Assembly: GCA_033980235.1 (NCBI GenBank)
Contig: CM067062.1
Coordinates: forward strand, 1,579,709 to 1,643,708
Direction of reading: 5' to 3'
Length of the DNA stretch: 64,000 nucleotides
DNA from: Diadema setosum
Lineage: Eukaryota; Echinodermata; Echinoidea; Diadematoida; Diadematidae
Positions 36,180-64,000 of this stretch are shown here, in pieces. Made by a program: the position numbers and the translations under genes. A model generated the notes under the pieces. The model had not been told where the DNA came from and made no database searches. It saw only the letters and a list, made by a program, of their open reading frames with translations. Within the stretch, counting starts at the first letter, position 1. Each line of letters opens with the position of its first letter.

Positions 36180-39100
36180 TCAAATGAGAGACTGATGTTG
36201 GCGTACACGTGAAGAGGCTGTTTGAATAAAAATGGGTAACTCATTAAACAATTTGCTTGCAGCATATGTAAAGGAGCATTTCTTATATTCAGTTCTAGGT
36301 TTGGGTATATGTAATTGGCAAGAAAGGGCATAACGAGTAGTATAAGTAGTAGGGCGTTTGGTCACAAGTTTGGCTATGTACGTTGGGGCTAAATTGTGTA
36401 ATAATTTGTACACCAGGACACAGTAATGATATTGAATTCTTTGTTCAACTGACTGCCATTTGAGAGCATGCGTAAGAGCTTGCGCTGACATGTAATAACC
36501 TCCATTCAATACTACACGAGCATACTTGTTTTGACAGCGTTGCAATCTATTTAAATTTGTCTTTGTTAATGACCCCCATACAGCACAACAGGAATCAATA
36601 TGTGGAAGTATGAAAGAAAAATACAACTGATTCATGATTTTACGTGTCAAACACGATTTGATTCTTCGTATACATACAATAGAACGAGACATTTTCGTGA
36701 CTACTTCATCGATGTGGGGAGACCAGTCAAGAGTTTGTTCAAAGATTACCCCAAGGTGTTTGATTCTCGCGACAGTTTCCAAAGGCCTGTCATTCATACA
36801 AATTTGAAGAGAATGTCTCTGTTTTCCTCGGCGAGGTCTGAATAACATAGCTTTCGTTTTGTCTAAATTAACAATCATACCATTGTCTAAAAAACATTTA
36901 CTGAGGAGTATAGTGTCTGCTTGGAGTTGTTCCTGTACTTTATAAGCATCACGTCCTGGGTGATGCCGTGTCGTCTGCATAGAGAGATACTTTAGTCGAA
37001 GTACTAAAGTTTAAGTTAGGAACATCATTGATGAACATACAAAAGAGCAATGGCCCTAGTATTGAACCCTGTGGAACTCCTGTTTGTACGGGGAGAAATT
37101 CGGATCTCTTGCCTTTAAAAGAAACGCATTGCTCTCTCCCTATTACGTAAGAATTAAACCACTTTAGTTCAGTTTTGTCTATGCCGAAGTAGGACAATTT
37201 CAGTAAAAGCAGGTCATGGGGTATGACATCGAAGGCCTTTTTTAGGTCTAAAAAGACTGCCCCAACCACATTGCCTTTGTCAAGGTTATCAGACAAAAAA
37301 TCACTAATCTCTGTTAAACATGTTGTGGTTGAGTGACTGGGTCTAAAACCCGATTGGCGCTCCGTCAACAGCTCGCCTTCATCCAAGTAACTAAGGAGTT
37401 GCGAGTGGACTGCTTTTTCGAAGATTTTTGCTACAGTGGATAAGAGTGAGATAGGACGATAATTGCGTATGTCGCTCACAAACTTATTTTTTTTGGTACA
37501 GGTATAACTTTAGCAAGCTTAAATGAGCGGGGAAATACTCCCGTTTCTAACGATTGATTAAAAATATGCGCTAAAGGTGAGGCTATCAGATGAGCGCTTA
37601 TTTTCAAAAGTTTAGGATGAAGTTCATCCAACCCAACAGATTTTGTACAGTCTAACTTCTGTAATTCTCTTTGAACAAAATCTGTACTTATTTCGTCAAA
37701 AGAAAAAGAAGATCGTGCACGGTTTACATAATTCAAACACTTTTGCCGTTGCTGATTTTTATCATTCTTGTCATTATTACTACAACATAATTTGCTAACA
37801 TTACTGAACATGACATTGCAATCTGTTGCAATCCTATGAAAATCATCAGTTGATTCACCGTCAATACATACATTTGACTCATCACATACTTTCTTATTTG
37901 GCAATAAATCTTTAAGCACGTTCCATCTTTTCCTCATATCATTACACCACTGTCTGATAATGCATCGCGATAATACACCCTTTTTAACTTTTTATTCAAA
38001 TTATTTGCTTTATTTCTGTAATATTTATATTTTTCCCAAAATGCCATTTCCTTAGTTTCACTGTGTTTTCTCTTATTAAAATCACGTTCCCTTGCTATGT
38101 TGATGTATTGCTCATTTATCCATGGCGATCCCTTTTGCTTTTTACGAACTGTAACATAGGGTGCATGTTTATTGCACATGTCTGAAAACACTTCATGGAA
38201 TTTACACCATTTCACATCAACATCTGCATTTTGTGATAACAATCAATTCCAATTTACAGCAGCCAAATCACTCAGAAAGGCATCCTGATTAAAGGATCGA
38301 AAAGAACGAAAAGACGAGGTCTTAGGTTTCAACTGTTGTGTCTTTGAGTTTGTTACTACATACACTAGGGAGTGGTCACTTAATCCGAGTGATTGTACAC
38401 CGCAATGAAGTTCCCCTAATGACTGCGACACAAAAATCAAGTCTATAAGTGTACTGCTGTTGGGAGTAACCCTGGTGGGTTGTTGAATACACTGAGATAA
38501 TCCCACCAGCCCACTCAGCTCTGCCAGCCTTTTGGAGAGTGGATTTACCGTAGACATGTTACAATTAAAGTCTCCCAATAGGATGATTCTATCCGAGATT
38601 GAATACACACGATCGAGGCTTTCTTCTAACATATCAAAGAAAGACGTTTGGCAACTAGGTTTTCTATAGGCTATCCCAACAAAGAGACTAGCCTCGTTTC
38701 TGGGCTTCACTTCTATCCATAAAAGTTCAAGATCAACTTTTTCTAAATCATACCTTCTCACGTAAGGAATATTTTCACGAATAAAACAACACACTCCGCC
38801 TCCGTATTGATCACGATCTTTCCTTTCAAGTTTGTAACCATAAAGCTGAACCATATTCGAACTTATTGTACCATCTAACCATGTTTCTGAAAATGACATT
38901 ATTTCAAACGGACAACACGTTAAAAAATTATTCAAATCTGCAGTCTTATTTCGAAGACTCCTTATATTTAAATGTGCTACTTTCAGCCAAATTTACTGTT
39001 GGAAACCGTGCTTTCACATTCTCTTCTTTTAACAGATAACATTCATATTCAGGCCCCTCTCTCGTACTTTCTGGATAATCAATATCATTCATAAAAGGCA

Positions 39101-39290
39101 GCTGAGTCAGCAAACATTTAGTACATAGCCAGTCAAGGAATGTTTCTTTGAGATCATCATATTTTGACTTTGATATGTCTATACATTCAATGTGAACCCA
39201 TTTGTGGCATTGCGTACATTTCAGAGCTCTCTGATTGTTTTTGACACTTTTATCACACCTAACACATGGAAATGAAATAACCATTGACAC
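36180..39290 (-). pseudogene. LINE copy C ORF2: PHD finger, AP-endonuclease, reverse transcriptase
   Basis: Segments in order: PHD-type finger with CVRCDKSVKNNQRALKCTQC, HKWVHIEC and LCTKC (39,260-39,100). A frameshift near 38,985 precedes the endonuclease with VAHLNIRSLRNK, SFSETWLDG, YGGGVCCFIRE, GIAYRKPSC, LLGDFNCNMS and LSDHSLVYV (38,990-38,330). A TGA at 38,243-38,245 is in frame. The linker includes KGSPWINEQYINIARERD. A frameshift near 37,940 is followed by SVGLDELHPKLLK and another shift near 37,480. The RT reads NYRPISLLSTVAKIFEKAVH, GFRPSHSTTTCLTE, GAVFLDLKKAFDVIPHDLLL, GVPQGSILGPLLFCMFIND and LYADDT (catalytic, about 36,975). A shift near 36,970 precedes the C-terminal part with LGVIFEQTLDWSPHIDEV and YFSFILPHIDSCCAVWGSL. 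Every expected domain is present, with no large deletion. Confidence 0.9.
38946..39290 (-). pseudogene. PHD-type zinc finger segment of LINE ORF2
   Basis: A 114-aa open segment with cysteine pairs CVRC, CTQC, WVHIEC and CTKC, spaced as a C4HC3 PHD finger, followed by a Pro/Glu-rich linker. PHD fingers are known in CR1-like non-LTR elements and may bind chromatin. In the ancestral element it was probably fused to the endonuclease, now one frame away. Confidence 0.8.
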
Positions 39291-39384
39291 TAGCGATCAA
39301 AATAACACACTATGAGTCTTTACAATGATGTAACAAAGGTAAATAAAAAATGAGTAAATGACGATGTACCTGTCATACAACAGT

Positions 39385-41729: not shown

Positions 41730-42560
41730 GTGACACGACATATGCTCCTGCGACAAATGCTCCGACGACAATTACTCCGAAAAATGCGACAAATGCTCCG
41801 CGACATTTGCTCCGCGACAAATGCTCCGGCGATATTAGTCTAGCTTCTGGACTCTTTTTACTCGTAGGGGTGATTCAGTGTACGCGACAAGCCGTATGAG
41901 GGCGTGACACCCGAGGATTGCGATACGCCGAGAACTGCGATTGTTGGGCGCGCAGTCTCTCGATTATCGCAATCAGAAAATTTGCGCCCTCTCTTGGTCG
42001 CACCAAGGAAAAGGGGACGGAGCCCAGACTACGGCGATATTTGCTCCGGCGACAAATGCTCCGGCGACATTTGCTCCGCCGACAAATGTTCCAGCGATAT
42101 TTGCTCTGGCGACAATTGCTCCTGTGACAATTGCTCCTACGACAATTGCTCTGGCATCAAATGCTCCGACGACATTTGCTCCGGCGATAATTGCTCCTAC
42201 AACAATATTGCTCCGGGGATATTTGCTCCGGCGACATTTGCTCCGGCGACAATTGCTCCTACCGCAATTGCTCCGACGTCATATAGGCCTAATGCAAAAG
42301 TCTGAAGGTACGTCTGTACCTTCAGACAGGTACGACATTTGCTCCGGTGACAATTGCTCCTACGACATTTGCTCCGACGTCATATGATGCAAAAGTCTGA
42401 AGGTAAAGACAGGTACGACATTAAAATTTGCTCTGGCGACATCTACTCCAACGACAATTGCTCCTACGAAAACTTCTTGTACCACCTTTGCTATACAAAG
42501 GTAAGACATTTGCTCCGGCGACGAATGCTCCAGAGACATTTGCTCGGACGGTCCTCCGAC
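41730..42560. repeat. 15-bp tandem array, family 2 (CGACAATTGCTCCGG-like), left copy
   Basis: 15-mers such as CGACATTTGCTCCGG and CGACAAATGCTCCGG are repeated from about 41,735. A ~105-bp unrelated segment (41,840-42,030) and a module with GACGTCATATGATGCAAAAG / TCTGAAGGTA / GACAGGTACGACA (twice, near 42,270-42,340 and 42,385-42,420) interrupt them. The reverse-orientation array at 57.0-57.6 kb carries the same module. 15-bp tandem repeats form the outer terminal domain of sea urchin TU foldback transposons. Open frames through the array are periodicity artefacts. Confidence 0.85.
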
Positions 42561-43921: not shown

Positions 43922-44310
43922 GGGTCTAGGACTTGTCCCCCGGAGGACAACTCCCCCGGGGACTACTCCCACCTGACAACTCCCCCGGAGGACGTCTCCC
44001 CCGGAGGACTACTCCCCCGGAGGATGTCTCCCCCGGAGGACGACTCCCCCGGAGGACGACTCCCCCGGGAGACAACTGCCCCGGGGGACCACTGCCCCGG
44101 GGGACCACTCCCCGGGGGGGACCACTCCCCCGGGGGACCACTCCCCCGGAGGACCACTCCCCCGGAGGACCACTCCCCCGGAGGACCACTCCCCCGGGGG
44201 ACAACTCCCCCGGGGGACAACTCCCCCGGAGGACAACTCCCCCGAATTGTCCTCCCCCGAATTTGAACAACTCCCGAACTCCCGAACTCCCGAATTCGAA
44301 CAACTCCCCC
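43922..44310. repeat. 15-bp array, family 1, outer left array of element 1
   Basis: Tandem GGACAACTCCCCCGG with third-position-like variants (GGAGGACTACTCCCC, GGGGGACCACTCCCC). The inner edge dissolves into CCCGAACTCCCGAATTCGAA before the unique inner domain. Confidence 0.9.
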
Positions 44311-44432
44311 GAATTTGAATTAAAGTTGGCGTTACCTAAGACCCGTCTATCTTTATAACAAAGTTTTTGAAGTCTCAGCACAAAGTTTTTACCATTGTAC
44401 ACGCTACATGTAATGTCGAAACAAGTAGAAAC

Positions 44433-44513
44433 GCAGGTGTGATGAATTTAGAAAATTTTGATTCCCAACAAATTACCTCCACTGCTTCCTTCAGAATGAA
44501 AAATATTTGTTTC
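44433..44513. repeat. Displaced inner-domain fragment of the foldback element
   Basis: This ~80-bp segment (GTGTGATGAATTTAGAAAAT ... TTTGTTTCG) is the reverse complement of 54,362-54,443, i.e. part of the right inner domain, joined between two left-end copies. Confidence 0.85.
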
Positions 44514-44872
44514 GGGTCTAGGACTTGTCCCCCGGAGGACAACTCCCCCGGGGACTACTCCCACCTGACAACTCCCCCGGAGGACGTCTCCCCCGGAGGA
44601 CTACTCCCCCGGAGGATGTCTCCCCCGGAGGACGACTCCCCCGGAGGACGACTCCCCCGGGGGACAACTGCCCCGGGGGACCACTCCCCGGGGGGGACCA
44701 CTCCCCCGGGGGACCACTCCCCCGGAGGACCACTCCCCCGGAGGACCACTCCCCCGGAGGACCACTCCCCCGGGGGACAACTCCCCCGGGGGACAACTCC
44801 CCCGGAGGACAACTCCCCCGGAGGACAACTCCCACCTGACAACTGCCCCGGGGACGTCTCCTGGGGGACAAT
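44514..44872. repeat. 15-bp array, family 1, second left array of element 1
   Basis: Begins with the same terminal sequence GGTCTAGGACTTGTCCCC as 43,923 and contains the same run of variants. The following 100 bases (to about 45,087) repeat 44,318-44,432, so the element's left end is partly duplicated. Confidence 0.9.
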
Positions 44873-46614
44873 CCCATACTGAACAGAGATGGGTTTTTTG
44901 TGTGTGTCCTAGAAATTGAAATTAAATTCATCTGTGTAAAAACAGTATTCTTTTTATGTAAAATTTGAATTAAAGTTGGCGTTACCTAAGACCCGTCTAT
45001 CTTTATAACAAAGTTTTTGAAATCTCAGCACAAAGTTTTTACCATTGTACACGCTACATGTAATGTCGAAACAAGTAGAAACGCAGGTCCATTTTATCAC
45101 TGAAAAATTGGTCAAGAGATAAACACATTGACGGAAACACGCTTTGGAACGAAGAGTTCATTCCTTAGCATGTACCTGTTATTCTTCATTATCTTATAAT
45201 ATTTTAAGAAGTCCATGCTTTGATGATTTTCTTTTTCATTTTGCTATCCATGATTATGATAAGGAATATGTTAAATGAAAGAAAGATATTATTCAGAGGG
45301 GTGAAGGCTCAAGTTGTTGAGTTTCTTCAGTTTGTCTCCCTCTACAAAGGAATATGTTGTAAGAAATACCCTTTTAATGGGGTTATGATTTTTATCTTAG
45401 ATTCTTATGATAGTTACTATCCTGTATGTCACTGTCAGTAATTTCATTGTGATATTTTTGTTTGTTATGTTGACTGTGAATTTATCTGAACATCATTACA
45501 ATTCTTAATGTCGGAGAAATAACTGACAGAAAAAAAAATGAATATTCTGTTCCTGAAAAGACTTGAACGTGTAAAAAGGTAATATCTTCCAACAGGCATT
45601 GGGCACTATAATGCAGAAACATTATTAGCACTGGTTGCACAGTTACCATGCATCCTGAATGCACCAGCATATACCGGTATCTGCATGACACAACCCTTGC
45701 TGTACTATTGTACTATTGTACAGAAAACACCAGATTGATAGCTAGAACTAGTTATAAGAGTATGGTAGTCAATACTACTTGAAAAAATACAGAAAAAAGT
45801 GCAAAAAATGGCAGTTGGGGTAGGGGTAAAGGGCAAGGAAAATTTATGCCTAGATATGGGCAAAAGGCTAGTATTATGTGAAAGATTAGGTTTTACACTA
45901 AAATTATCATTATAATCCATTTCCTTGACCCCAAAAACATGGGGTTAGACACCAAAACCATCACAATTGACCAAAAATAGCCGAGTTATAACCAGAAATG
46001 TCTTTTTAAAGCCGAAACGGCGACCAGCTTGGATTTTTTACGATTTCGGACGGGGCACCCTGGATTTCGCATTTTTCGTTCTTTTTTTTTTTTCAAAAAT
46101 GGTGTCAGTAGGCACAAAGTCATCAAACTAAGGTGTGATGAGCATGTTCTGAAAATGTCACCCTCTTTAGCCCATCTCTAAGAGATATCAAAGGATGACG
46201 ACTGTAATATTTAGGCTGTTATTTAGAGAGTTCCTTAGTTGTTTCTTTAATCAGTCAGAATAAGCACACGATCTTGGCAGTAATTTTTTGTTGTATTACA
46301 ATCATGACGAGTTTTAACAATGCAAATGCTTTAGCGATATCGATTGCATCGGATGCCCAAGGGAAGAAACGAACACTGGTCAAAAAGTATATGTGCAAAC
46401 TTTGTTAACACGCAGGTGATAGGTTGATATGTTTTTATTCTTCTAGGTCTTGGGTGCAAGTAAGGAAGTTTGCTGAGGTAGTACATCTATAACCTCCGGG
46501 GTATCTCGAGAGGGGCGTCTATAGAGCATAGCAACAGCATCATCTCTATGGGGATTGGTTGGCGCTGCATAGCTAGGCACTAGTCTGTGCGTTCAAACTG
46601 TACTAATTTCAAAC
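44873..46614. other. Left inner domain of foldback element 1
   Basis: AT-rich, non-coding, and nearly identical in reverse complement to 61,968-63,705. Only short unsupported open frames. It ends exactly at the ATAT target of the nested element. Confidence 0.8.
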
Positions 46615-46618
46615 ATAT

Positions 46619-46650
46619 CGTCGGCGTTTTCACGAACTGACGCTATTTCG
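46619..46650 (+). repeat. Left terminal inverted repeat of the 6.8-kb transposon
   Basis: 32 bp, with 28 positions matching the right end. It includes a CACGAACTGACGC motif. Confidence 0.9.
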
Positions 46651-46814
46651 ATTTTGGTCAAAATTTTCAAAATCGAGATATTGGTACCAAATGAAAGTGC
46701 TTTCAAAACTCTACCAAATCCCAAAATTTTAGATCACAAAAATAATTATTCTTAATTTTATCAAAGAAAGAAAAAAACGACGGTACTCGAAATATCGAGA
46801 AATTGAGAAAAAGG

Positions 46815-46906
46815 AGTTTCACGAACCGACGCACGAAAGATACGCCGGTTCGTAAAACCCGAATTGCTACGGTGAAGAGCAATGCGGGTTTCACGAACCG
46901 TCGCAG
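46815..46906. promoter_or_regulatory. Left subterminal motif cluster (CACGAACCGACGC family)
   Basis: TTTCACGAACCGACGC at about 46,817, an inverted CGCCGGTTCGTAAAACCC at about 46,843, and GGTTTCACGAACCGTCGC at about 46,887. Repeated subterminal motifs of this kind are typical transposase-binding sites; that role is inferred. Confidence 0.7.
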
Positions 46907-48690
46907 TTGCATTACTTTGAGCATTGTTCAACTTACTGGCCTAGAATTAGGTTTTGGCCCTAATCCAGATCTCAGAGTGAGAACCAAGCCTTCTGAAAGA
47001 TGAATGACGGCCTAAGCCAGCCCACTGTCCACGAGTGAAGTGAATGGTAAGCTATAATCCTATTAAAATCATGCTCAAAATAACAGTTTCAGTTGGACTA
47101 CCATAACCATTAATTGCGGTAGTGTGTAGTCCCATGTATTCAATCGCGTGATGCTTATGAAGCCTAGTCTGTAAACGCCATACAATTTCAAATTAGATCC
47201 CAAATCATATTATTTATTGTTTCTTTTCAACTTATGTCGTTAGACGTTACTTCTGAGACTACTGAGTACTATAGTCGTAACGTCTGTGTGCAAGACATGC
47301 AGATTGCCAGATTTCAAAGTCTCGAAGACACTAAAACTAGCCTTGACTTTTGAGTTGAAAATGAAATCGACATGAGATTGACAAAGTAGGCGTAGGCCCT
47401 ACTAAACTAAAAAAAAAAAATAAATTAAAAGTCTAACAGTAAAACTCAAAGGAAGAGTAAAGAATAAAGTTAGACATGTTAGACTTTTACTTTCAAGTCT
47501 AACTATTAAGTCTAAGTTAAGACTTTACTTTTAATACCAGTTACTAAAACTAAGATCAGCTGCAGTCTAAGACCAAGTCAAATTAACACAGTTCAGAGCC
47601 ATACCGGTAGTCTAGCTCTAGATCTACATCTAGACTAGTGGTAATAGTAGGTAGAGTCCACCCATTTTTTCCCCCAATCTTTACTGGTCCATTCCTGAAA
47701 AAGTTACTGGTCAGTGTCCAACAGTGATTTTTCCTGGTCAGGGACCGTCGGACCAGTGCCAGTGTGCAGCGTTGGTGTAGATGTCATCTATGACAGTATG
47801 TGGTCTAGTGATACTACCTAAACACTACGAGTACTCTACAGGTTAGGTGGCTTTCCTGTACAGTGCAGTGTTAAAGTATACTTGTGAATTCAGCCCTAGT
47901 ACCGTACTGTGTGTAGTGTATGTCTAACGTTAGTTCGAGTGGAGTACCTAAGCACAGCGGTGGGGCTTTTTTCCCCTAAAACTTGTGAATGTGGCCCAAC
48001 CAAATGGCGTTTGTATATTTACGCTTGATTGATAGTGATACAGTGGCGCTGTCGATTTCCACAGCAGCCATACATAATCTTTTGTCCTTTCTTCTTTCCT
48101 TTTTCCCCCTTTGTTCTTTCACTCTTTTTATTCTTGGAATCGAAGGACTTCCTAAGAAATGTCCCTCGACTGATTTAACCAGGACTCTTGAGTCCTGGTA
48201 AACCTAACCTTACCGAGTAACCGTTAACGTTTGTTAGGCCTAACATAACAGTAACACTGACTTAGCCCTGTATTGACTTTGTCTTAGGCCGACTTACTGA
48301 GATGGCGAGTCTCATTCTTTAACGTTAGTCTAAACATAGTCGCTAGATCTGTCAGTGTCAGTGTCACCGGTTATTGTATATGGTGCCATCTCTAACGTAC
48401 TTTAACAAGTTGATGTTAGTTATCTATGTCAACTTACTGATTTAGTAATAGCGGTACTGTCATCCTGTTGGACATCGCCGAAATATCATCCGTGACGTGT
48501 TAATTTCGTGTCACAAAGACAAAAGTTGCCAAGATCTAATAGTATTAGATGTCTAGATTTAGATGTAGTCTAGATCTAAGTAATATGAAATCTGTGTAAC
48601 TTAAAAGTGAAAGGTCTAGACTTCACTTAGTCTATAATTAGACCAGACATTCATGAGGCAAAGGCCTATTTAGTAGATCTATTCTTATTC
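46907..48690. other. Interior of the 6.8-kb transposon, left part
   Basis: No gene recognised. Rich in AAGTCTAA / TCTAGATCTA-type short motifs (47,420-47,640 and 48,530-48,620). Confidence 0.5.
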
Positions 48691-48697
48691 TATTTTA

Positions 48698-48883
48698 ATG
48701 TCAATTCCTGCTAACTCGCCACGTGTTATTCCTAAGGCCAAGGACTTCCGGGTTAGTGATTTTTTTTTTGTTGATAAATACCAAACAGCAGACGTGTTTC
48801 ATTTGCATTCTTGCACAGACTTCATGAAAATATGTGCAGTATCAAAGAAATATGATGCACATGACAATGCCACTGTTTTATAG
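48698..48883 (+). other. Exon-like open segment inside the 6.8-kb transposon
   Basis: A 61-codon frame from ATG 48698 (MSIPANSPRVIPKAKDFRVS...) ends in TAG directly followed by GTGAAT, a donor-like sequence. Its composition looks more protein-like than the surroundings, but no domain is recognised. Presented as a possible exon only. Confidence 0.25.
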
Positions 48884-48921
48884 GTGAATGGTTAATACCT
48901 TTAAAAGCTGAATGATAATGT

Positions 48922-50002
48922 AGAGTCTAGGTCTAATTAAGATGATACAGTCTCTGATAAGAAACAGGTTTGATTGTCGTAGACTGTTTCCCAAATGCAG
49001 GTAGTAATATTCAGCTACTTCAATGCAATGCCTTGTTTACAAGTACATGTAGATTTATATTCATGTGAATGATAATTCAATTTCTACATGAGACTTACTA
49101 AGTGCTAGACATAAGATCTTGCATCATTAAAATGTGTAAATGACGAGACAATTTGAATATGGATCAAAGACGAACAGCAGTATATTTTGACATTCTTTGA
49201 TCCTGCATAGGCCTACCATTTTGTTTTATGTTTAATATAAATAGAGCAAAATAATTTCAACTTCAGTTTTGTTGGCTGAGTTTTTTTTTCTTCTCAAAAT
49301 TAAAGTTGTATCTTGTACCATGATGTTTGATTTTAATCAAAAGTTCTTAATTTCTTTTTCTTTCAGATGACTGGTGCCATGTAGTAGCGAAGAACTGGAC
49401 TGTCTCAGAAAAGAAAAGAAAAAGTACAGGGTCGTGTACATCATCAACGGATGTGAATACAATGGTAATTAGAGTCTAGGTCTAATCAAGATGTTAAAGT
49501 CTCTGATAATAAAGAAGTTTGATTGTCGTAGACCGTTTCCGAAATGCAGTTAGTAATATTCAGCTTTTTCAAAGCAATGCCTTATTTACAAGGACATGTA
49601 GATTTATTCATGTGAATGATAATTTAATTTCTACATGAGACTTACTAAGTGCTAGACATAAGATCTTGCATCATTAAAATATGTAAAAGGCGAGACCATT
49701 TGAATATGCATCAAAGACGAACAGCAGTATTTTTTGACATTCTTTGATCCTGTATACCATTTTGTTTTATGTTTAATATAAATAGAGCAAAATGATTTCA
49801 ACTACAGCTTAGTTGGCTGATTTCTTTTTCTCAAAATGAAAGTTGTATCTTGTATCATGATGTTTGATTTTAATCGAAAGTTCTTAATTTCTGTCTTTTC
49901 TTTCACATGACTGATGCCATGCAGTAGCGAAGAGCTGGACTGTTTCAGAGAAGAAAAAAAGTACAGCATCGTGCTTATCATCAAGGAATGTGAATACAAT
50001 GG
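48922..50002 (+). repeat. ~549-bp tandem duplication with an exon-like end
   Basis: AGAGTCTAGGTCTAAT at 48,922 recurs at 49,471. Both copies run ~540 bp and end GTGAATACAATGG. In the first copy a polypyrimidine tract and CAG at 49,364-49,366 are followed by a 98-nt open frame (DDWCHVVAKNWTVSEKKRKS...) ending ATG|GTAATT. In the second copy the acceptor AG is lost (CAC) and TGG has become TGA. This looks like a duplicated exon with one decayed copy. Confidence 0.5.
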
Positions 50003-50722
50003 CTTAGGAAAGAAGACAATCTACAGATAGGATAGAAGGGAGAACTTGGGATAAAGGGCGACAACATAAGGACGGTATATCTACATTAAAATGTGATTGT
50101 AAAGTGGAAACATGAAAGAAGATTCTAAGATTGAAGGTGAAAACATGCATTCCATTCTGTGATGTCGTAATTACAATTTTGCTACACTTTAATAACACTA
50201 CTGAGAGACATTTATATCAAGGCAAGCTTCATGTGGATATGGAATGTTAGATTTTCTTTAAGTGTTCATTGGTATGTATTTCATGATAATAAATCTTGAA
50301 GGTTTTGTGTGGTAATCATAACCTTGTGATACATCTTGATAAATTTCTAAGTGCACATTGGCAATATTCAGATGATGCTGTAATCAGATGAAGTTAGATG
50401 GTTGAATAATCATTGCATAAATTGACATAATCATTCAACCATCACTAGACAGTTCTGTTATGAGATGTTCTTTATTTAACTAAAATTGTAAATTATGATA
50501 CGTGTTTGCTCCCCTGCAAACTCACAACAAAATACAGAAATATGATTTCTTTTAATAATAATTCATTATGTCTCTAAATGTACAATTAAAGAAAGTGATT
50601 ACAAAAAGGATGTCAAACATTGTATATTAAAATAATAGATTATTCATTTGTCTCCATCCGTAGTAACACATGCAACTGCAGTGTGCAGTTTGTGGGCTGC
50701 TGTGAAAAAAAAAAAAATCACA
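50003..50722. other. Gene-free interior
   Basis: AT-rich and unremarkable up to the tRNA-like sequence. Confidence 0.5.
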
Positions 50723-50800
50723 GGCAGCCCAAGCGGGATTCGAACCCACGACCTCCGGATTACTAGACCAGCACCATAACCACTAGACCACCGGGATGCC
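50723..50800 (-). tRNA. tRNA-like sequence, anticodon loop suggests AGT (Thr), possibly pseudogene
   Basis: On the minus strand: A box TGGTCTAGTGGTTATGG, anticodon arm CTGGT-CTAGTAA-TCCGG (four pairs plus a T-T mismatch), B box GGGTTCGAATCCC within T stem GTGGG/CCCGC, acceptor GGCATCC/GGCTGCC with one mismatch, and a T-run (about 50,718 down to 50,705) as terminator. It is about 5 nt longer than a standard tRNA and has two stem mismatches. It is therefore a pseudogene, an atypical tRNA, or a tRNA-derived SINE head. Confidence 0.5.
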
Positions 50801-53010
50801 CTAGCACTACCTTTAGACATGAATGATTAAATATAGAAGGGCTTGGGGGCGCTTCGAAGTTAACTGCTCTTATTGAATATGCACATGTCATTTGCAACTC
50901 GACTAAAGATGATTAAACGCACTGAAATTCTTACTTTAAATAATATTCATAATCTGTTTTTTTTTTTCTTTAATAGCTTGGGATGTACACTGTATCGGTC
51001 TACATTTCGCCTACAATATGGAATTCTTTACTTCGAGACGTTTGTTTTTTACAAAAGAAAATTAAGAGTCCTTTAAAGGTGCTGTAGAACAGTGGCGTGT
51101 TTTTTTTTTGAGGGGGGGGGGGAGGGGAGTCAAATTAGCCTTGGCCCCTCTACACCGTCCTTTTTTTTTTCACCTTTGGCTGCATTTTTTTTTTTTTTAG
51201 TCATCACATGAAAATTCGTCTGCATCCACCCCGTAGTTTTGCTGATGACCTTTCTTTTTAATTATCTTAACCACACACAATTTTGGCCGAATTTCCCCAC
51301 CCCTCTTGTGAATTTGCTAGCACATGTGTTTATAGTACTGGTGGATTAAGGATTCGGAGGGGGGGGGGGGTCGGCCAAAATTTCTCTTTTCTCATATGTA
51401 ACAAGCCTACGGGGCGAAAGGCTGATATTATGGGCTTTCTACACACATTTTTAGATGCTAATTATTGGTTAATATGAGCACGATCATTTATGTTGTGATT
51501 AATTTGTTTCCTTTTCATATATGTATGACTTCTATTAGAGACTTAATTGGCTTGGCACTCCTTACATCGACCTATTTTAGACACCCATTTCCTTCTCTCT
51601 CTCTTGCTTTTTCTCTACTGTCCTGTGAATAGTGTAACTACATGTACATGCAGTACCTCTTCTCTTTTGTATGATATACATCAAGTTTCCATCTGAGCAT
51701 AATGTGTGTTGCAGCACTCTCAAGCTTCATGCATATGCAGCAACATCTTTTTATGTCCATATACATAATTATGCTTGATATATTAATTTGAGAATGTTAT
51801 TCTTTCTTTTGTATATGTTCCGTCCGCACTCTATAGATGTAAATGTACATTGTAAGATTTGGTGCGCATGTTCGACCTGTGTTTCTCTTTTTGTGAACAC
51901 ACAAGAACTGATTTAATAATGAACTTGAATTACGCATATTCTTTAATATTGATTCCATCTCCATTTGCCATTAGATATTTATTGATTTATGGAGCTCTTC
52001 CACAATTGTTATCCTTCCCATTGTCATTACTCATCTCTGAATAATTCAAATTTGATACTTTATTGAGAACCTATGTTTCTTCGATTACATAATGTACCTC
52101 TTCAATATACACATGTGTTGCTGCAAAAGGCATAATAAAACATGACCATTGTTATATATTTAAAATGAAGCTTGAAATTCTGATAATTTTGATATTTATG
52201 TATTTTTAGGAGTTTATCAGTTTCGAAGAGTGCATGCAGGATGAGTTTTATGTTTTTATATGATCAAGTGCAGCTATCAAAGAATCTGTTGAGCAGGAAA
52301 GAGAAAGATGGAAAATGAGGAATTATGAGTGAATTCGCATGCAAGCCAAATGACAATAATGACACCGATAAAAATTGTGACAAAGTAAAAGTCACAAATA
52401 ATGTGGAATAATAAGAAATAAAGAAATTAATAGATTATTTCAGAGAAAGAAATAACAGAGTGCATGAGTATGAAAGATGAGTAAATGCAAGTAATCATTA
52501 CTGACTGGCACATCTTTTTCCCTATATTTAGCGGTATCCTTCATCTTAGAACAAACATTCATAATTATTATGAAAGAAGTGAACTGAATTTGAATTAAAA
52601 ATTATGTGAAAAATAAAGAAAGTAAGTTAAAAAAGTATAAAAAAAAACAGTAAAAAGTAAAAAAATATGAAACACAGTATACCGAGTACATATTAATTAC
52701 CAAATGATAAATGTCCACATGCAAAAGTGTTGAATAATACATCCACACAAAAAAGGAGGGGGGAGGGCAAAGAAATCTTTGGAGCGATCAACGACAGCTC
52801 TAATAACAATGCTAAATGAAGATGAAAACAAGGACAACACGCTTTTTAGAACAATTAAGAGAAACTGGCTTACATTATCATCTTAATTATCACCTAATGT
52901 ATTATAATCATCACAATAATCATTACATGACAATTAATTTCAATTAATAAGGTTATTGTTGATAAGCAGGTATAGCCCTAATAGTATTTGTATGTAAACA
53001 CATACGAAAA
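50801..53010. other. Interior of the 6.8-kb transposon, right part
   Basis: Contains T- and G-tracts at 51,100-51,200 and 51,358-51,371, resembling short dispersed repeats elsewhere in the window, otherwise AT-rich. No gene recognised. Confidence 0.5.
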
Positions 53011-53017
53011 TGAAATA

Positions 53018-53185
53018 GCGACGGTTCGTAAATACACGCGTATTGCACGTTACCTATTGTGCAGGCCCTACAGCGCGGGTCCCACGAACCGGCGTAATAC
53101 AACTTACGTCGGTTCGTGAGACCCGCGCTTAAGTACATAACCTATGGCGCGCGCAAGAAACGATGGATTTACGAACCGACGCAGT
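53018..53185. promoter_or_regulatory. Right subterminal motif cluster (CACGAACCGACGC family)
   Basis: GCGACGGTTCGTAAAT (about 53,018), CCCACGAACCGGCG (about 53,082), ACGTCGGTTCGTGAGACC (about 53,106) and TTTACGAACCGACGC (about 53,168), in mixed orientations. With the motif inside the TIR this gives five on the right and four on the left. Confidence 0.7.
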
Positions 53186-53380
53186 GAGTTTGAAGACAGA
53201 AATATCGTAATTCTTTTGAATTCACACTAAAATTACACTATGGATAGGAAGAACAACTTCCACTCTCATCACCCTGTCAAAATTTTCACACACAAGACAG
53301 GAAAAGTCATTGAAAACGTTGTCTAAAACTTGTGAGATCTTTAAACGCGATTTTCTCAGAATTGCATTTTCGCTCAAAAA

Positions 53381-53412
53381 CGAAATAGCGTCGGTTCGTG
53401 GTAACACCGACG
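53381..53412 (-). repeat. Right terminal inverted repeat of the 6.8-kb transposon
   Basis: CGAAATAGCGTCGGTTCGTG and then GTAACACCGACG, the inverted partner of 46,619-46,650. Confidence 0.9.
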
Positions 53413-55173
53413 ATATGGCATCTCCCTTTCTTTAGAAAAGTAAAATGTCTTCTTTTCACACAAATTTTTTTCATTTATCAACTACCACTGAAACTAAATG
53501 AATAAGGCATTGTCTTTTTCGGATTATCATGGCAATTATTATTTTGATACGTTGTTCACACAATATACTTGTCCTATTTGAGTAATAATGGAAATACTTT
53601 ACTTGTATGGGCGTGTTTGGCTTGCCATACCTTATATCTTACATTCAACTTTACTACATGTGTAATCATAGCAACACATCTTATAACCACAAACATTAGT
53701 ACTTGTAAAGTGAGTAACACTTCACTTCAATGTTGAGATATCGCGGCTTTGTATGATACATTACAACGCACTCTTGTAACGACGTAAGTTCAATATCGTT
53801 CTTCACACTTGGAGGAATACTTGTGATCGTTTTGTGAACTGTACTTTTGTTCACTTTTAGAAATGTGTTATTTTTGTCTTTGAAGAAACGTTAATCATTG
53901 TTTCTCTTATAATAATCAACAGAGCTGTTACTTTGGATAAGTCAGATGAAACACTTTTATTGCACTCAAAATGTAACCAACTCTACTCTCCATATGGGCA
54001 ATTCCATGGGAATGTGGACATGGCACCAGAATTTCAAGTTTATCATATTGCAAAAGAATTACTCATTATGTATTAACCATATATTGAAGTTAAAGACACT
54101 AAAAGAATTATGTCAATCGGTCAAATATTTCCCAAGAAACACCTACAGATGTTGAACACAATTTTTCAGTCATCCAAATTGCTAAAATGCATGCTTTACT
54201 TAATACATTTCTTTTAATAGAAAAATTCTGCTAGCACTTCAGTTAATTTATTTTAAAGAAGCAAATTAGTTCTACTTCAGTGTCCAATGAGGACATTTTT
54301 ATGGCACCTTCCAAAAATTTTAATCGCCACATGAAAGTTCAGCCCTTGAGCCATGTAACGCGAGTTACCGAAACAAATATTTTTCATTCTGAAGGAAGCA
54401 GTGGAGGTAATTTGTTGGGAATCAAAATTTTCTAAATTCATCACACCCTGATACTGTACACAGGATAAACACTGTTATCACATTAAAAAAATGTCAATGA
54501 AAAGTGTAACGCGAGTTACCGGCATGTAACGCGAGTTACCGACTACTAGTTTCTCCCAACATAAGCAAATTTTAACACTCAATTGAGCTAGATTGTGGTG
54601 AAAACAATCAAATGCAGTGTTAAACATTATGCTGAACTGAAACAAAGGAGAGAAGCCTAATAAACTGTGATTGTATAATACTAGAATCCAGACCACTGAT
54701 CACATGCCACATTGAGGAGTCTGGCCAGGCTTTCACTGCATGTGTACGTGTACATTGTTTCCACCAGTGAATGAGAACATAAAATTTATCTTCGGAGTTT
54801 CCTGCATCAGTAGGCCTAATACAGAATTTTTATTACAGAATGCTATAAAGCAGCAAGTGTTGGTTCTAATCCTTATTCTGTGGTCTACTGAAGACGATGC
54901 CTGTCCGGAGATCAGGAGGTCATAGGTTCGAATCTTGCTTCAGTATGTATGCCCATGATTTTTTATCATGGCTGCTACTAAAACACTGATTAATTCAGGG
55001 CTTGTTTACCTTGATGGAGGGCAATTTGTCAACAGTTGCAATGAAAACATCTTACTCTATTCGCTCCTGAAATAAAAAGAAATTGGAGTGAATTTTGAGT
55101 GAAAATGTTCATTTTCACTCGTTTTCGAGTGACCTCAGGGATCACTCCAAAATCTTCGAGTGACAAACATAAC
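53413..55173. other. Right inner domain of foldback element 1
   Basis: Nearly identical in reverse complement to 60,200-61,967. It holds three GTAACGCGAGTTAC hairpin motifs (54,356, 54,508 and 54,526) and a tRNA-like segment (54,880-54,941). No gene. Confidence 0.8.
54880..54941 (+). other. tRNA-derived segment in the foldback inner domain
   Basis: GTGGTCTACTGAAGACGATG (A-box-like), CCTGT-CCGGAGA-TCAGG (anticodon-arm-like) and AGGTTCGAATC (B box). It aligns with the tRNA-like sequence at 50.7 kb. No acceptor stem is recognisable. The mirror copy is at 60,439-60,497. Confidence 0.5.
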
Positions 55174-55419
55174 AAACCGGGGGAGTTGTCCTTCGGGGAG
55201 TTGTCCTCCGGGGGAGTTGTCCTCCGGAGGAGTTGTCCCCCGGGGGAGTTGTCCCCCGGGGGAGTAGTCCCCCGGGGGAGTTGTCCCCCGGGGGAGACGT
55301 CCTCCGGGGGAGTAGTCCTCCGGGGGAGACGTCCTCTGGGGGAGTGGTCCTCCGGGGGAGCTGTCAGGTGGGAGTAGTCCCCGGGGGAGTAGTCCTCCGG
55401 GGGAGTTGTCCTGATACGG
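55174..55419. repeat. 15-bp array, family 1, right terminal array of element 1
   Basis: Tandem CCGGGGGAGTTGTCC (reverse of the left array), ending GTCCTGATACGG at the 8-bp duplication. Confidence 0.9.
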
Positions 55420-55427
55420 TTGTAAGG
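55420..55427. repeat. Right 8-bp target duplication of foldback element 1
   Basis: TTGTAAGG, identical to 43,914-43,921. Confidence 0.75.
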
Positions 55428-55489
55428 ATATGTCTTTCAATTCTTAAAACCTATTCTTATTGTATCAACTGAATTTATTCGGGGTTTTT

Positions 55490-57020: not shown

Positions 57021-57029
57021 GAACTTTCA

Positions 57030-57585
57030 TTTGTCGCTGGAGCAACTGTCGCCGGAGCATTTGTCTCCGGAGCAAATGTCGGAGGAGCAAATGTCTTACC
57101 TGTCTGTATACCTTCAGATTTTTGCATCAAATGCCCTTCGAACAATTGCCATCGGAGCAAATGTCGCCGGAGCAAACGTCGGAAGAGCAAAGGTCGTACC
57201 TGTGAGTATCTTCAGACCTTTGCATCATATGACGTCGGAGCAAATGTCGTAGGAGCAATTGTCGCCGGAGCAATTGTCGTACCTGTGTGTACTTTCAGAC
57301 CTTTGCATCACCTGACGTCGGAGCAAATGTCGTAGGAGCAAATATCGCCGGAGCAAATGTCACCGGAGCAATTGTCGCACCTTAGGATCATTTTGTCGTA
57401 GGAGCAGATGTCGCCGCAGCAAACGTCGCTGGAGCAAATGTCGCCGGAGCAAATGTCGCTGGAGCAAATATCGCCGGAGCATTTGTCGGCGGAGCAAATG
57501 TCGCGGAGCATTTGTCGCATTTTTCGGAGCAATTGTCGTCGGAGCATAATGTCGCCGGAGCAAATGTCATGGAACCGAAAATTGT
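57030..57585. repeat. 15-bp tandem array, family 2, right copy (inverted relative to 41.7 kb)
   Basis: Tandem CCGGAGCAAATGTCG-type 15-mers interrupted three times by a module with ACCTTCAGACCTTTGCATCA and ACGTCGGAGCAAATGTCG. This is the reverse complement of the module in the left array. Confidence 0.85.
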
Positions 57586-59377: not shown

Positions 59378-59975
59378 CATACATAGAAAAGTTGGGAAAT
59401 AGCCCGTCAAGTCTTATTATTGGCAATGCAAGGCATTTTGATATAGACTATAGTATGTAAAGCAACAATCAGTGATCTAGCTTTGATATAACGAAGTGTA
59501 AGGTACAGAGGTGTACATTCTACATCACATTGCGCAACATTACAGCGACTCTTTGCCATTCGGATGTTCTGAGTACGTTGCTCCATCCTGCCTATCATTC
59601 AGAATGCCAACCAGGAATCACGCTGAATCACAATCTTTTGTCGGCTCCGGGCTTTTTGAACAATGTTTCACACTATTGATGCCTCTTTAATTATGGTTAA
59701 AAGAAATCTTAGAAAAAAAATAATTTCTTGCTCACCCTTTCATGTCAATTTCAAAAGCAGTTTACTAACCCTTGAATTACCATTTTGATATTTTTTTTAC
59801 CAGCGGATTGGGGGGGGGGGGGGCACGTGCCCCCCCCCCCCCCCACCCCAGTTACGCCACTGATTGGAGACCTATAACGAGGGAGGGGGTGGGCGGGGTA
59901 TCTCCCTCCCATGCGATGGAGCTTTTGCTTTTTCTGAATTGATAATCCGTTGCACAATGAATGAAATATACCTTA
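59216..59975. other. Gene-free stretch
   Basis: A GT microsatellite (59,343-59,376), facing G- and C-tracts around CACGTG (59,811-59,843) and a degenerate G-rich unit (59,880-59,935). No gene. Confidence 0.6.
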
Positions 59976-59984
59976 CCGTATCAG

Positions 59985-60200
59985 GACAACTCCCCCGGAG
60001 GACTACTCCCCCGGGGACTACTCCCACCTGACAGCTCCCCCGGAGGACCACTCCCCCAGAGGACGTCTCCCCCGGAGGACTACTCCCCCGGAGGACGTCT
60101 CCCCCGGGGGACAACTCCCCCGGGGGACTACTCCCCCGGGGGACAACTCCTCCGGAGGACAACTCCCCCGGAGGACAACTCCCCGAAGGACAACTCCCCC
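59985..60200. repeat. 15-bp array, family 1, inner-facing array of element 2
   Basis: Tandem GGACAACTCCCCCGG variants, matching the reversed array at 55,174-55,413 including the off-pattern CCACCTGACAGCTCC. Confidence 0.9.
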
Positions 60201-60438
60201 GGTTTGTTATGTTTGTCACTCGAAGATTTTGGAGTGATCCCTGAGGTCACTCGAAAACGAGTGAAAATGAACATTTTCACTCAAAATTCACTCCAATTTC
60301 TTTTTATTTCAGGAGCGAATAGAGTAAGATGTTTTCATTGCAACTGTTGACAAATTGCCCTCCATCAAGGTAAATAAGCCCTGAATTAATCAGTGTTTTA
60401 GTAGCAGCCATGATAAAAAATCATGGGCATACATACTG

Positions 60439-60497
60439 AAGCAAGATTCGAACCTATGACCTCCTGATCTCCGGACAGGCATCGTCTTCAGTAGACC
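60439..60497 (-). other. tRNA-derived segment, element 2 copy
   Basis: Exact mirror of the segment at 54,880-54,941. Confidence 0.5.
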
Positions 60498-61960
60498 ACA
60501 GAATAAGGATTAGAACCAACACTTGCTGCTTTATAGCATTCTGTAATAAAAATTCTGTATTAGGCCTACTGATGCAGGAAACTCCGAAGATAAATTTTAT
60601 GTTCTCATTCACTGGTGGAAACAATGTACACGTACACATGCAGTGAAAGCCTGGCCAGACTCCTCAATGTGGCATGTAATCAGTGGTCTGGATTCTAGTA
60701 TTATACAATCACAGTTTATTAGGCTTCTCTCCTTTGTTTCAGTTCAGCATAATGTTTAACACTGCATTTGATTGTTTTCACCACAATCTAGCTCAATTGA
60801 GTGTTAAAATTTGCTTATGTTGGGAGAAACTAGTAGTCGGTAACTCGCGTTACATGCCGGTAACTCGCGTTACACTTTTCATTGACATTTTTTTAATGTG
60901 ATAACAGTGTTTATCCTGTGTACAGTATCAGGGTGTGATGAATTTAGAAAATTTTGATTCCCAACAAATTACCTCCACTGCTTCCTTCAGAATGAAAAAT
61001 ATTTGTTTCGGTAACTCGCGTTACATGGCTCAAGGGCTGAACTTTCATGTGGCGATTAAAATTTTTGGAAGGTGCCATAAAAATGTCCTCATTGGACACT
61101 GAAGTAGAACTAATTTGCTTCTTTAAAATAAATTAACTGAAGTGCTAGCAGAATTTTTCTATTAAAAGAAATGTATTAAGTAAAGCATGCATTTTAGCAA
61201 TTTGGATGACTGAAAAATTGTGTTCAACATCTGTAGGTGTTTCTTGGGAAATATTTGACCGATTGACATAATTCTTTTAGTGTCTTTAACTTCAATATAT
61301 GGTTAATACATAATGAGTAATTCTTTTGCAATATGATAAACTTGAAATTCTGGTGCCATGTCCACATTCCCATGGAATTGCCCATATGGAGAGTAGAGTT
61401 GGTTACATTTTGAGTGCAATAAAAGTGTTTCATCTGACTTATCCAAAGTAACAGCTCTGTTGATTATTATAAGAGAAACAATGATTAACGTTTCTTCAAA
61501 GACAAAAATAACACATTTCTAAAAGTGAACAAAAGTACAGTTCACAAAACGATCACAAGTATTCCTCCAAGTGTGAAGAACGATATTGAACTTACGTCGT
61601 TACAAGAGTGCGTTGTAATGTGTCATACAAAGCCGCGATATCTCAACATTGAAGTGAAGTGTTACTCACTTTACAAGTACTAATGTTTGTGGTTATAAGA
61701 TGTGTTGCTATGATTACACATGTAGTAAAGTTGAATGTAAGATATAAGGTATGGCAAGCCAAACACGCCCATACAAGTAAAGTATTTCCATTATTACTCA
61801 AATAGGACAAGTATATTGTGTGAACAACGTATCAAAATAATAATTGCCATGATAATCCGAAAAAGACAATGCCTTATTCATTTAGTTTCAGTGGTAGTTG
61901 ATAAATGAAAAAAAAATTGTGTGAAAAGAAGACATTTTACTTTTCTAAAGAAAGGGAGAT

Positions 61961-61968
61961 GCCATATG
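61961..61968. other. Empty target site for the 6.8-kb transposon
   Basis: GCCATATG with one ATAT at 61,964-61,967. The flanks on both sides continue the two flanks of 46,615 and 53,416 in element 1. Confidence 0.9.
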
Positions 61969-63709
61969 TTTGAAATTAGTACAGTTTGAACGCACAGACT
62001 AGTGCCTAGCTATGCAGCGCCAACCAATCCCCATAGAGATGATGCTGTTGCTATGCTCTATAGACGCCCCTCTCGAGATACCCCGGAGGTTATAGATGTA
62101 CTACCTCAGCAAACTTCCTTACTTGCACCCAAGACCTAGAAGAATAAAAACATATCAACCTATCACCTGCGTGTTAACAAAGTTTGCACATATACTTTTT
62201 GACCAGTGTTCGTTTCTTCCCTTGGGCATCCGATGCAATCGATATCGCTAAAGCATTTGCATTGTTAAAACTCGTCATGATTGTAATACAACAAAAAATT
62301 ACTGCCAAGATCGTGTGCTTATTCTGACTGATTAAAGAAACAACTAAGGAACTCTCTAAATAACAGCCTAAATATTACAGTCGTCATCCTTTGATATCTC
62401 TTAGAGATGGGCTAAAGAGGGTGACATTTTCAGAACATGCTCATCACACCTTAGTTTGATGACTTTGTGCCTACTGACACCATTTTTGAAAAAAAAAAGA
62501 ACGAAAAATGCGAAATCCAGGGTGCCCCGTCCGAAATCGTAAAAAATCCAAGCTGGTCGCCGTTTCGGCTTTAAAAAGACATTTCTGGTTATAACTCGGC
62601 TATTTTTGGTCAATTGTGATGGTTTTGGTGTCTAACCCCATGTTTTGGGGGTCAAGGAAATGGATTATAATGATAATTTTAGTGTAAAACCTAATCTTTC
62701 ACATAATACTAGCCTTTTGCCCATATCTAGGCATAAATTTTCCTTGCCCTTTACCCCTACCCCAACTGCCATTTTTTGCACTTTTTTCTGTATTTTTTCA
62801 AGTAGTATTGACTACCATACTCTTATAACTAGTTCTAGCTATCAATCTGGTGTTTCCTGTACAATAGTACAATAGTACAGCAAGGGTTGTGTCATGCAGA
62901 TACCGGTATGTGGCTGGTGCATTCAGGATGCATGGTAACTGTGCAACCAGTGCTAATAATGTTTCTGCATTATAGTGCCCAATGCCTGTTGGAAGATATT
63001 ACCTTTTTACACGTTCAAGTCTTTTCAGGAACAGAATATTCATTTTTTTTTCTGTCAGTTATTTCTCCGACATTAAGAATTGTAATGATGTTCAGATAAA
63101 TTCACAGTCAACATAACAAACAAAAATATCACAATGAAATTACTGACAGTGACATACAGGATAGTAACTATCATAAGAATCTAAGATAAAAATCATAACC
63201 CCATTAAAAGGGTATTTCTTACAACATATTCCTTTGTAGAGGGAGACAAACTGAAGAAACTCAACAACTTGAGCCTTCACCCCTCTGAATAATATCTTTC
63301 TTTCATTTAACATATTCCTTATCATAATCATGGATAGCAAAATGAAAAAGAAAATCATCAAAGCATGGACTTCTTAAAATATTATAAGATAATGAAGAAT
63401 AACAGGTACATGCTAAGGAATGAACTCTTCGTTCCAAAGCGTGTTTCCGTCAATGTGTTTATCTCTTGACCAATTTTCAGTGATAAAATGGACCTGCGTT
63501 TTTACTTGTTTCGACATTACATGTATCGTGTACAATGGTAAAAACTTTGTGCTGAGATTTCAAAAACTTTGTTATAAAGATAGACGGGTCTTAGGTAACG
63601 CCAACTTTAATTCAAATTTTACATAAAAAGAATACTGTTTTTACACAGATGAATTTAATTTCAATTTCTAGGACACACACAAAAAACCCATCTCTGTTCA
63701 GTATGGGAT

Positions 63710-64000
63710 TGTCCCCCAGGAGACGTCCCCGGGGCAGTTGTCAGGTGGGAGTTGTCCTCCGGGGGAGTTGTCCTCCGGGGGAGTTGTCCCCCGGGGGAGT
63801 TGTCCCCCGGGGGAGTGGTCCCCCGGGGGAGTGGTCCCCCGGGGGAGTGGTCCTCCGGGGGAGTGGTCCCCCCCGGGGAGTGGTCCCCCCCGGGGAGTGG
63901 TCCCCCGTGGCAGTGGTCCCCCGGGGCAGTTGTCCCCCGGGGGAGTCGTCCTCCGGGGGAGTCGTCCTCCGGGGGAGACATCCTCCGGGGGAGTAGTCCT
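63710..64000. repeat. 15-bp array, family 1, far array of element 2 (runs off window)
   Basis: Tandem GGAGTTGTCCTCCGG variants, the reverse of 44,514-44,872. It continues past the last base. Confidence 0.9.

Follow-up and report, generated by a model that had tools for sequence, protein, structure and literature searches.

The 6,794-bp insertion in one arm of a Diadema setosum palindrome and its likely origin in a young non-coding DNA transposon family

The filled site, the empty site and the element ends

What is the 6,794-bp segment that one arm of a large palindrome of the sea urchin Diadema setosum has and the other arm lacks, and what kind of transposase could have brought it in? The segment occupies positions 46619–53412 (unstranded) of the window, that is, the 64,000-nucleotide stretch analysed here (assembly GCA_033980235.1, contig CM067062.1, positions 1,579,709 to 1,643,708 of the forward strand). 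The best explanation, to which a probability of about 0.88 is attached, is that it is one member of a young, non-coding family of cut-and-paste DNA transposons that have CGTCGG...CCGACG ends and target-site duplications of the form ANNT. The family is new, but the kind of element is known.

First of all, the two arms provide a filled and an empty site. The filled site reads AACATAT-element-ATATGGC, with one ATAT at 46615–46618 and the other at 53413–53416, and the empty site of the other arm reads AACATATGGC, with a single ATAT at 61964–61967 (all three unstranded); filled minus empty site amounts to 6,798 bp. The original prediction, which had described a precise 6,794-bp insertion with ATAT on both sides and one ATAT at 61,964–61,967, was exact in its coordinates, and its reading of a DNA transposon with terminal inverted repeats (TIRs), inserted once into one arm with duplication of ATAT, is supported. 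Because ATAT overlaps itself, the window site alone is ambiguous, and enumeration gave a 4-bp ATAT duplication, a 2-bp TA duplication and no duplication as compatible with it.

Beside the insertion, 0/500 bases differ between the arms on the left, and 2 substitutions and 2 gaps are found in about 500 on the right; outside the minisatellite, the 3,474 aligned bases contain 9 substitutions and 4 gaps in all. Such likeness, together with the ability of palindrome arms to convert each other, would also suit an empty arm from which the element was precisely lost through excision or gene conversion, instead of a single insertion into the other arm. This is improbable, for the empty site holds one ATAT and no footprint, and such a loss would in any case leave the identity of the element unchanged. 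Inverted repeats are commonly misassembled, and the right arm continues beyond the window, so that the palindrome itself might be an assembly artefact; this is very improbable, as the insertion is bounded just like the members of a real, duplication-flanked family, and double reading of one molecule would have put the insert into both arms.

The TIRs were predicted as imperfect repeats of about 32 bp starting CGTCGG, and they match at 28/32 positions, extending to 33/38, against a maximum of 22/38 in 2,000 shuffled end pairs; the left one lies at 46619–46656 (+) and the right one at 53375–53412 (−). Inside them a CpG-rich 13-mer, GCGTCGGTTCGTG, is clustered. With up to 3 mismatches allowed, it occurs 14 times in the window where 5.1 are expected, and the nine copies within the element all lie within 400 bp of its ends, with 0 in the 5,994-bp middle; in 300 shuffles of the ends the mean was 0.25 and the maximum 2. 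Four copies form the left cluster (46631–46904, at 46631(−), 46820(−), 46842(+) and 46892(−)), and five form the right one (53018–53400, at 53018(+), 53083(−), 53106(+), 53170(−) and 53388(+)). The CpG observed/expected ratio is 1.95 in the ends, 0.58 in the middle and 0.76 in the window. In Ac/Ds and Spm, clustered subterminal sites are the binding sites of the transposase, and the GCGTCGGTTCGTG clusters are putative sites of this type; the letters of the motif were found in no paper by a text search of the literature library. As a separate observation, the right subterminal region 53018–53182 (165 bp) forms an imperfect palindrome (about 70%), whose inverted match is listed in 21/21 copies scored, partial in some.

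Copy number, age and content of the family

The possibility had been raised with the original prediction that the ends might not recur elsewhere with target duplications. Across the genome (885.7 Mb), the end pattern (at most 1 mismatch) was found 229 times forward and 234 times reverse, 463 in all, while the backwards control gave 0 + 0; moreover, identical ANNT flanks were present in 39/39 relatives examined at both ends. The 463 end matches therefore correspond to roughly 230 copies. A search of the genome, which placed the window at C4:1579709–1643708, gave 2,009 first-look candidates, of which 21 were scored, namely the window copy and 20 others; these 20 relatives were fetched, 19 with both ends and one (L028) without the left end. 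For the left 312 bp there were 249 first-look candidates, and 40/40 scored ones had 99–100% identity.

The usual family unit is about 7.3 kb. When 100 of the 463 end places were listed, they resolved into 41 pairs and 18 unpaired ends, with 28/41 pairs spanning 7,278–7,346 bp, and the complete fetched copies (n = 19) measured 7,134–7,351 bp. The predicted size of 6.8 kb thus holds for the window copy and not for the usual unit: the window copy is shorter than the others by about 538 bp, at an indel point at 50418–50420 (unstranded) where 20/20 fetched relatives hold 535–540 bp that it does not have. An older copy, L050, is without about 442 bp here, and its breakpoints overlap the gap of about 538 bp at 50419 but differ from it; the flanks GATGGTTGAAT...ATTCAACCATC near 50419 suggest that an element may be nested there.

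As to age, likeness of the arms alone does not prove recency, because gene conversion can homogenise the arms of a palindrome. Recent activity is indicated instead because the compared copies diverge little from their consensus: among 20 complete copies, the window copy included, divergence is 0.27–0.64% and the pairwise median is 0.82%. That is to say, the predicted recent insertion and recently active transposase stand, on grounds other than the arm likeness from which they had been derived. An older layer of the family is 91–95% identical and has slightly different ends; L050 is such a copy, with long stretches of 91–95% identity and the duplication AAAT. The examined part of the family, namely the copies compared, is young, uniform and non-coding.

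The longest open reading frame (ORF) in any of the 20 complete copies compared is 110 amino acids. No Pfam family reached the cut-off in the six-frame translation of the element, the sole match being Ets1_N_flank (E 0.012; 15.6 bits, the cut-off being 27); at E ≤ 1, nothing in the protein collection matched either of two left-end ORFs. Neither of two end patterns was matched exactly in the viral contigs, and a 20-base end match in the bacterial contig L001, which did not extend past 21 bases, was taken as chance. In the interior there is a direct duplication at 48911–50002 (+), made up of 48911–49465 and 49461–50002 with 88.5% identity, which the 20 fetched relatives share, L029 only in part. 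A tRNA-Thr-like sequence lies at 50723–50797 (−) and is followed by a T-run; it is perhaps a short interspersed nuclear element. It is unusual for such a burst to be made of a 7.3-kb non-coding element and not of a short miniature inverted-repeat transposable element. The presence of a large, young, protein-free DNA transposon family shows that this genome recently had a working transposase to match it, and the many near-alike insertions with a filled/empty pair are material for testing which transposase recognises CGTCGG ends.

Target-site duplications and the superfamily

The duplications of the 39 relatives were ATAT 9, ATTT 9, AAAT 7, AATT 6, ATGT 4, ACAT 3 and ACTT 1, that is, AWWT in 31/39 and A..T in 39/39. 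In 19 fetched relatives, the exact 4 bp outside CGTCGG...CCGACG were AAAT 5, ATTT 5, ATAT 3, AATT 2, ATGT 2, ACAT 1 and ACTT 1. Another 20 pairs, picked from the end-place list (7.29–7.35 kb apart, the first one 7.79 kb), gave ATTT 4, AATT 4, ATAT 4, AAAT 2, ACAT 2, ATGT 2 and, within a longer ATATAT match, ATAT 2. A 4-bp target-site duplication is the simplest reading of these flanks. A fixed TA, as in Tc1/mariner, and no duplication, as in Spy, are both excluded, for NN both varies and is duplicated. A 2-bp duplication of NN at A|NN|T, the element then having the ends T...A, is formally possible because 39/39 relatives have the outer A and the outer T, which makes the two readings equivalent in sequence; a similar ambiguity has been reported for NuwaII in the available part of PMC4482050. 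It is nevertheless unlikely, since it needs the terminal bases of the element to equal host bases by coincidence, and 4 bp needs no such coincidence.

As in a cut-and-paste TIR DNA transposon, the family has TIRs and a target duplication whose length is constant over many sites. With regard to the superfamily, the Sola2 group appears to be the best assignment as judged by the duplications, and it is given about even odds because membership of a non-autonomous element needs either a terminal alignment or an autonomous element sharing its ends; by the Repbase rule, in the available part of PMC4455052, the terminal sequence should be alignable at positions 1–11 to known members. The original prediction could name no family with these ends and a 4-bp ATAT target, and as regards the target this must be revised: the available part of PMC3627910 gives the Sola2 of amoebozoa AT-rich AWWT duplications, with ATAT, AAAT and ATTT named, and short imperfect TIRs (12–21 bp), features which resemble those found here. 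The differences are that the copies examined encode no transposase, as would be anticipated for a non-autonomous element, that 8/39 duplications are ATGT, ACAT or ACTT, and that the Sola2 cases published in that part are amoebozoan.

Among Sola2, Ginger1, Ginger2 and ISL2EU, only Sola2 fits by the published rules, as far as the available parts of the sources give them. Ginger1 targets CCGG/CCGT and Ginger2 RTATAY, both with TGTNR termini (PMC2836005), whereas CGTCGG ends and ANNT targets are found here; Ginger2 has in common with the family 4-bp duplications, an AT-rich target and some elements of 6–7 kb (PMC2836005), and it differs in its termini and target and in its integrase-like gene, none of which was found in the family. 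ISL2EU cuts A|AT|T and duplicates AT (PMC4482050), and the middle pair here is AT in 6/39 relatives only. IS630/Tc1/mariner duplicates TA, and the middle pair is TA in 9/39. The Ds element of maize is a member of the hAT family and has 8-bp duplications. Like the present family, it is non-autonomous and has common TIRs and subterminal repeats, and it is moved in trans (available part of PMC3260210), as is presumed for the family; but its sizes vary greatly, while 28/41 listed pairs here are 7.28–7.35 kb.

Besides the formal 2-bp possibility, several points weigh against the explanation given at the outset: the 8/39 duplications outside AWWT; the comparison with Sola2 by its published duplication rule and not by end sequence; and the fact that an autonomous element with the ends of the family was not found in the samples examined. 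To these may be added the terminal hairpins, which can be drawn in each end and were dropped as a functional feature, not being clearly above chance (z −0.45 and −1.57; 61/200 and 13/200 shuffles fold equally well).

The search for an autonomous partner and the surroundings of the element

The sampled left-end loci carry the family interior in 20/20 cases. A further 20 places with pairs of odd size or with variant ends were probed; 17 of them match the interior and three (L062, L064 and L065) do not. L072, the stretch surrounding L065, shows no match to the family and has long low-complexity repeats. L062 led to L071, whose frame of 898 amino acids was rejected as the partner because it is part of another transposon, which lies nested in a copy of the family. 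This transposon (L071:89–6647, G000:C4) is 6,559 bp long with a TATT duplication, its TIR begins GGCCCAAAACC... with 29/30 of the first bases matching, and it is inserted in the TIR of the family copy at position 29. The two are alike in sharing the genome, a 4-bp duplication (TATT in the nested one) and CTATTTCG inside their TIRs; the TIR GGCCCAAAACC... and the 898-amino-acid open frame set the nested transposon apart as a separate family. Neither Pfam nor PDB yielded a relative of its protein above noise; the protein is presumed by us, from motifs, to be Sola-like. Elsewhere, two adjoining frames of L050 (300 + 274 amino acids) have the look of a possible reverse transcriptase.

When the genome was searched with the 898-amino-acid protein, 54 matches were listed, several of them grouped, with open frames of 700–900 amino acids. 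The flanks (2–2.5 kb each side) of six of these transposase loci contained no family TIR at up to 8 mismatches. In 12 flank stretches there were scattered motif matches (3 mismatches), two in L076 and one in L080, with no cluster, and the L073 flank had a 22-base match to the family consensus and no motif cluster. Seventeen of the transposase matches lie on contigs for which the places of the family's ends were fully listed (C1 to C7:25.07 Mb, ≤1 mismatch, two tables compared by eye), and only one of them, the nested one of L071, is within 10 kb of an end. The partner is absent from the loci examined, or has more diverged ends, or is of another superfamily.

The last of these corresponds to an element of the same kind moved by another short-duplication superfamily, such as Chapaev, Academ, Ginger2, the PHIS group or an undescribed one. 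It is a serious contender, though on the doubtful side. The 0/6 sampled transposase loci with family ends within about 2–2.5 kb speak for it, as no partner was identified; the CCGG/CCGT targets of Ginger1, the TGTNR termini of both Ginger groups and the AT rule of ISL2EU, which do not agree with the family, speak against it, as does the fit of ANNT to the published Sola2 rule. It is a long shot, further, that an undescribed superfamily exists which targets ANNT and has CpG-rich subterminal binding sites, perhaps sensitive to methylation, and whose transposase source sustains the movement of a 7.3-kb non-coding passenger present in roughly 230 copies.

For the cut-and-paste transposon family proposed at the outset, the following mechanism may be envisaged. 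A DDE/D transposase supplied in trans by another element would bind the TIR and the CpG-rich subterminal motifs and cut the element out; the two strands of an ANNT target would be cut at points 4 bp from each other and joined to the element, and repair of the gaps would produce the target duplication. Of this scheme, the element ends, the precise empty site and the duplication are observed.

Around the element, the large foldback extends over 43928–55439 and 59958–64000, with 16-bp minisatellite arrays in both arms, and runs off the right end of the window; we take it to resemble the TU foldback elements of sea urchin. A second inverted pair with 15-bp minisatellite arrays (42032–42383 and 57028–57568) is about 75% alike, one of its members lying in the foldback spacer. 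According to Pfam, several ORFs of retrotransposons without long terminal repeats (non-LTR) are present in this eukaryotic window. The best named matches of a retrotransposon ORF1 are in the sea urchins Lytechinus pictus (45%) and Diadema antillarum (42%), and weaker ones are in other echinoderms, a fish and lancelets. A PHD-finger ORF is located at 38949–39296 (−), between the ORF1 and the endonuclease of a non-LTR retrotransposon.

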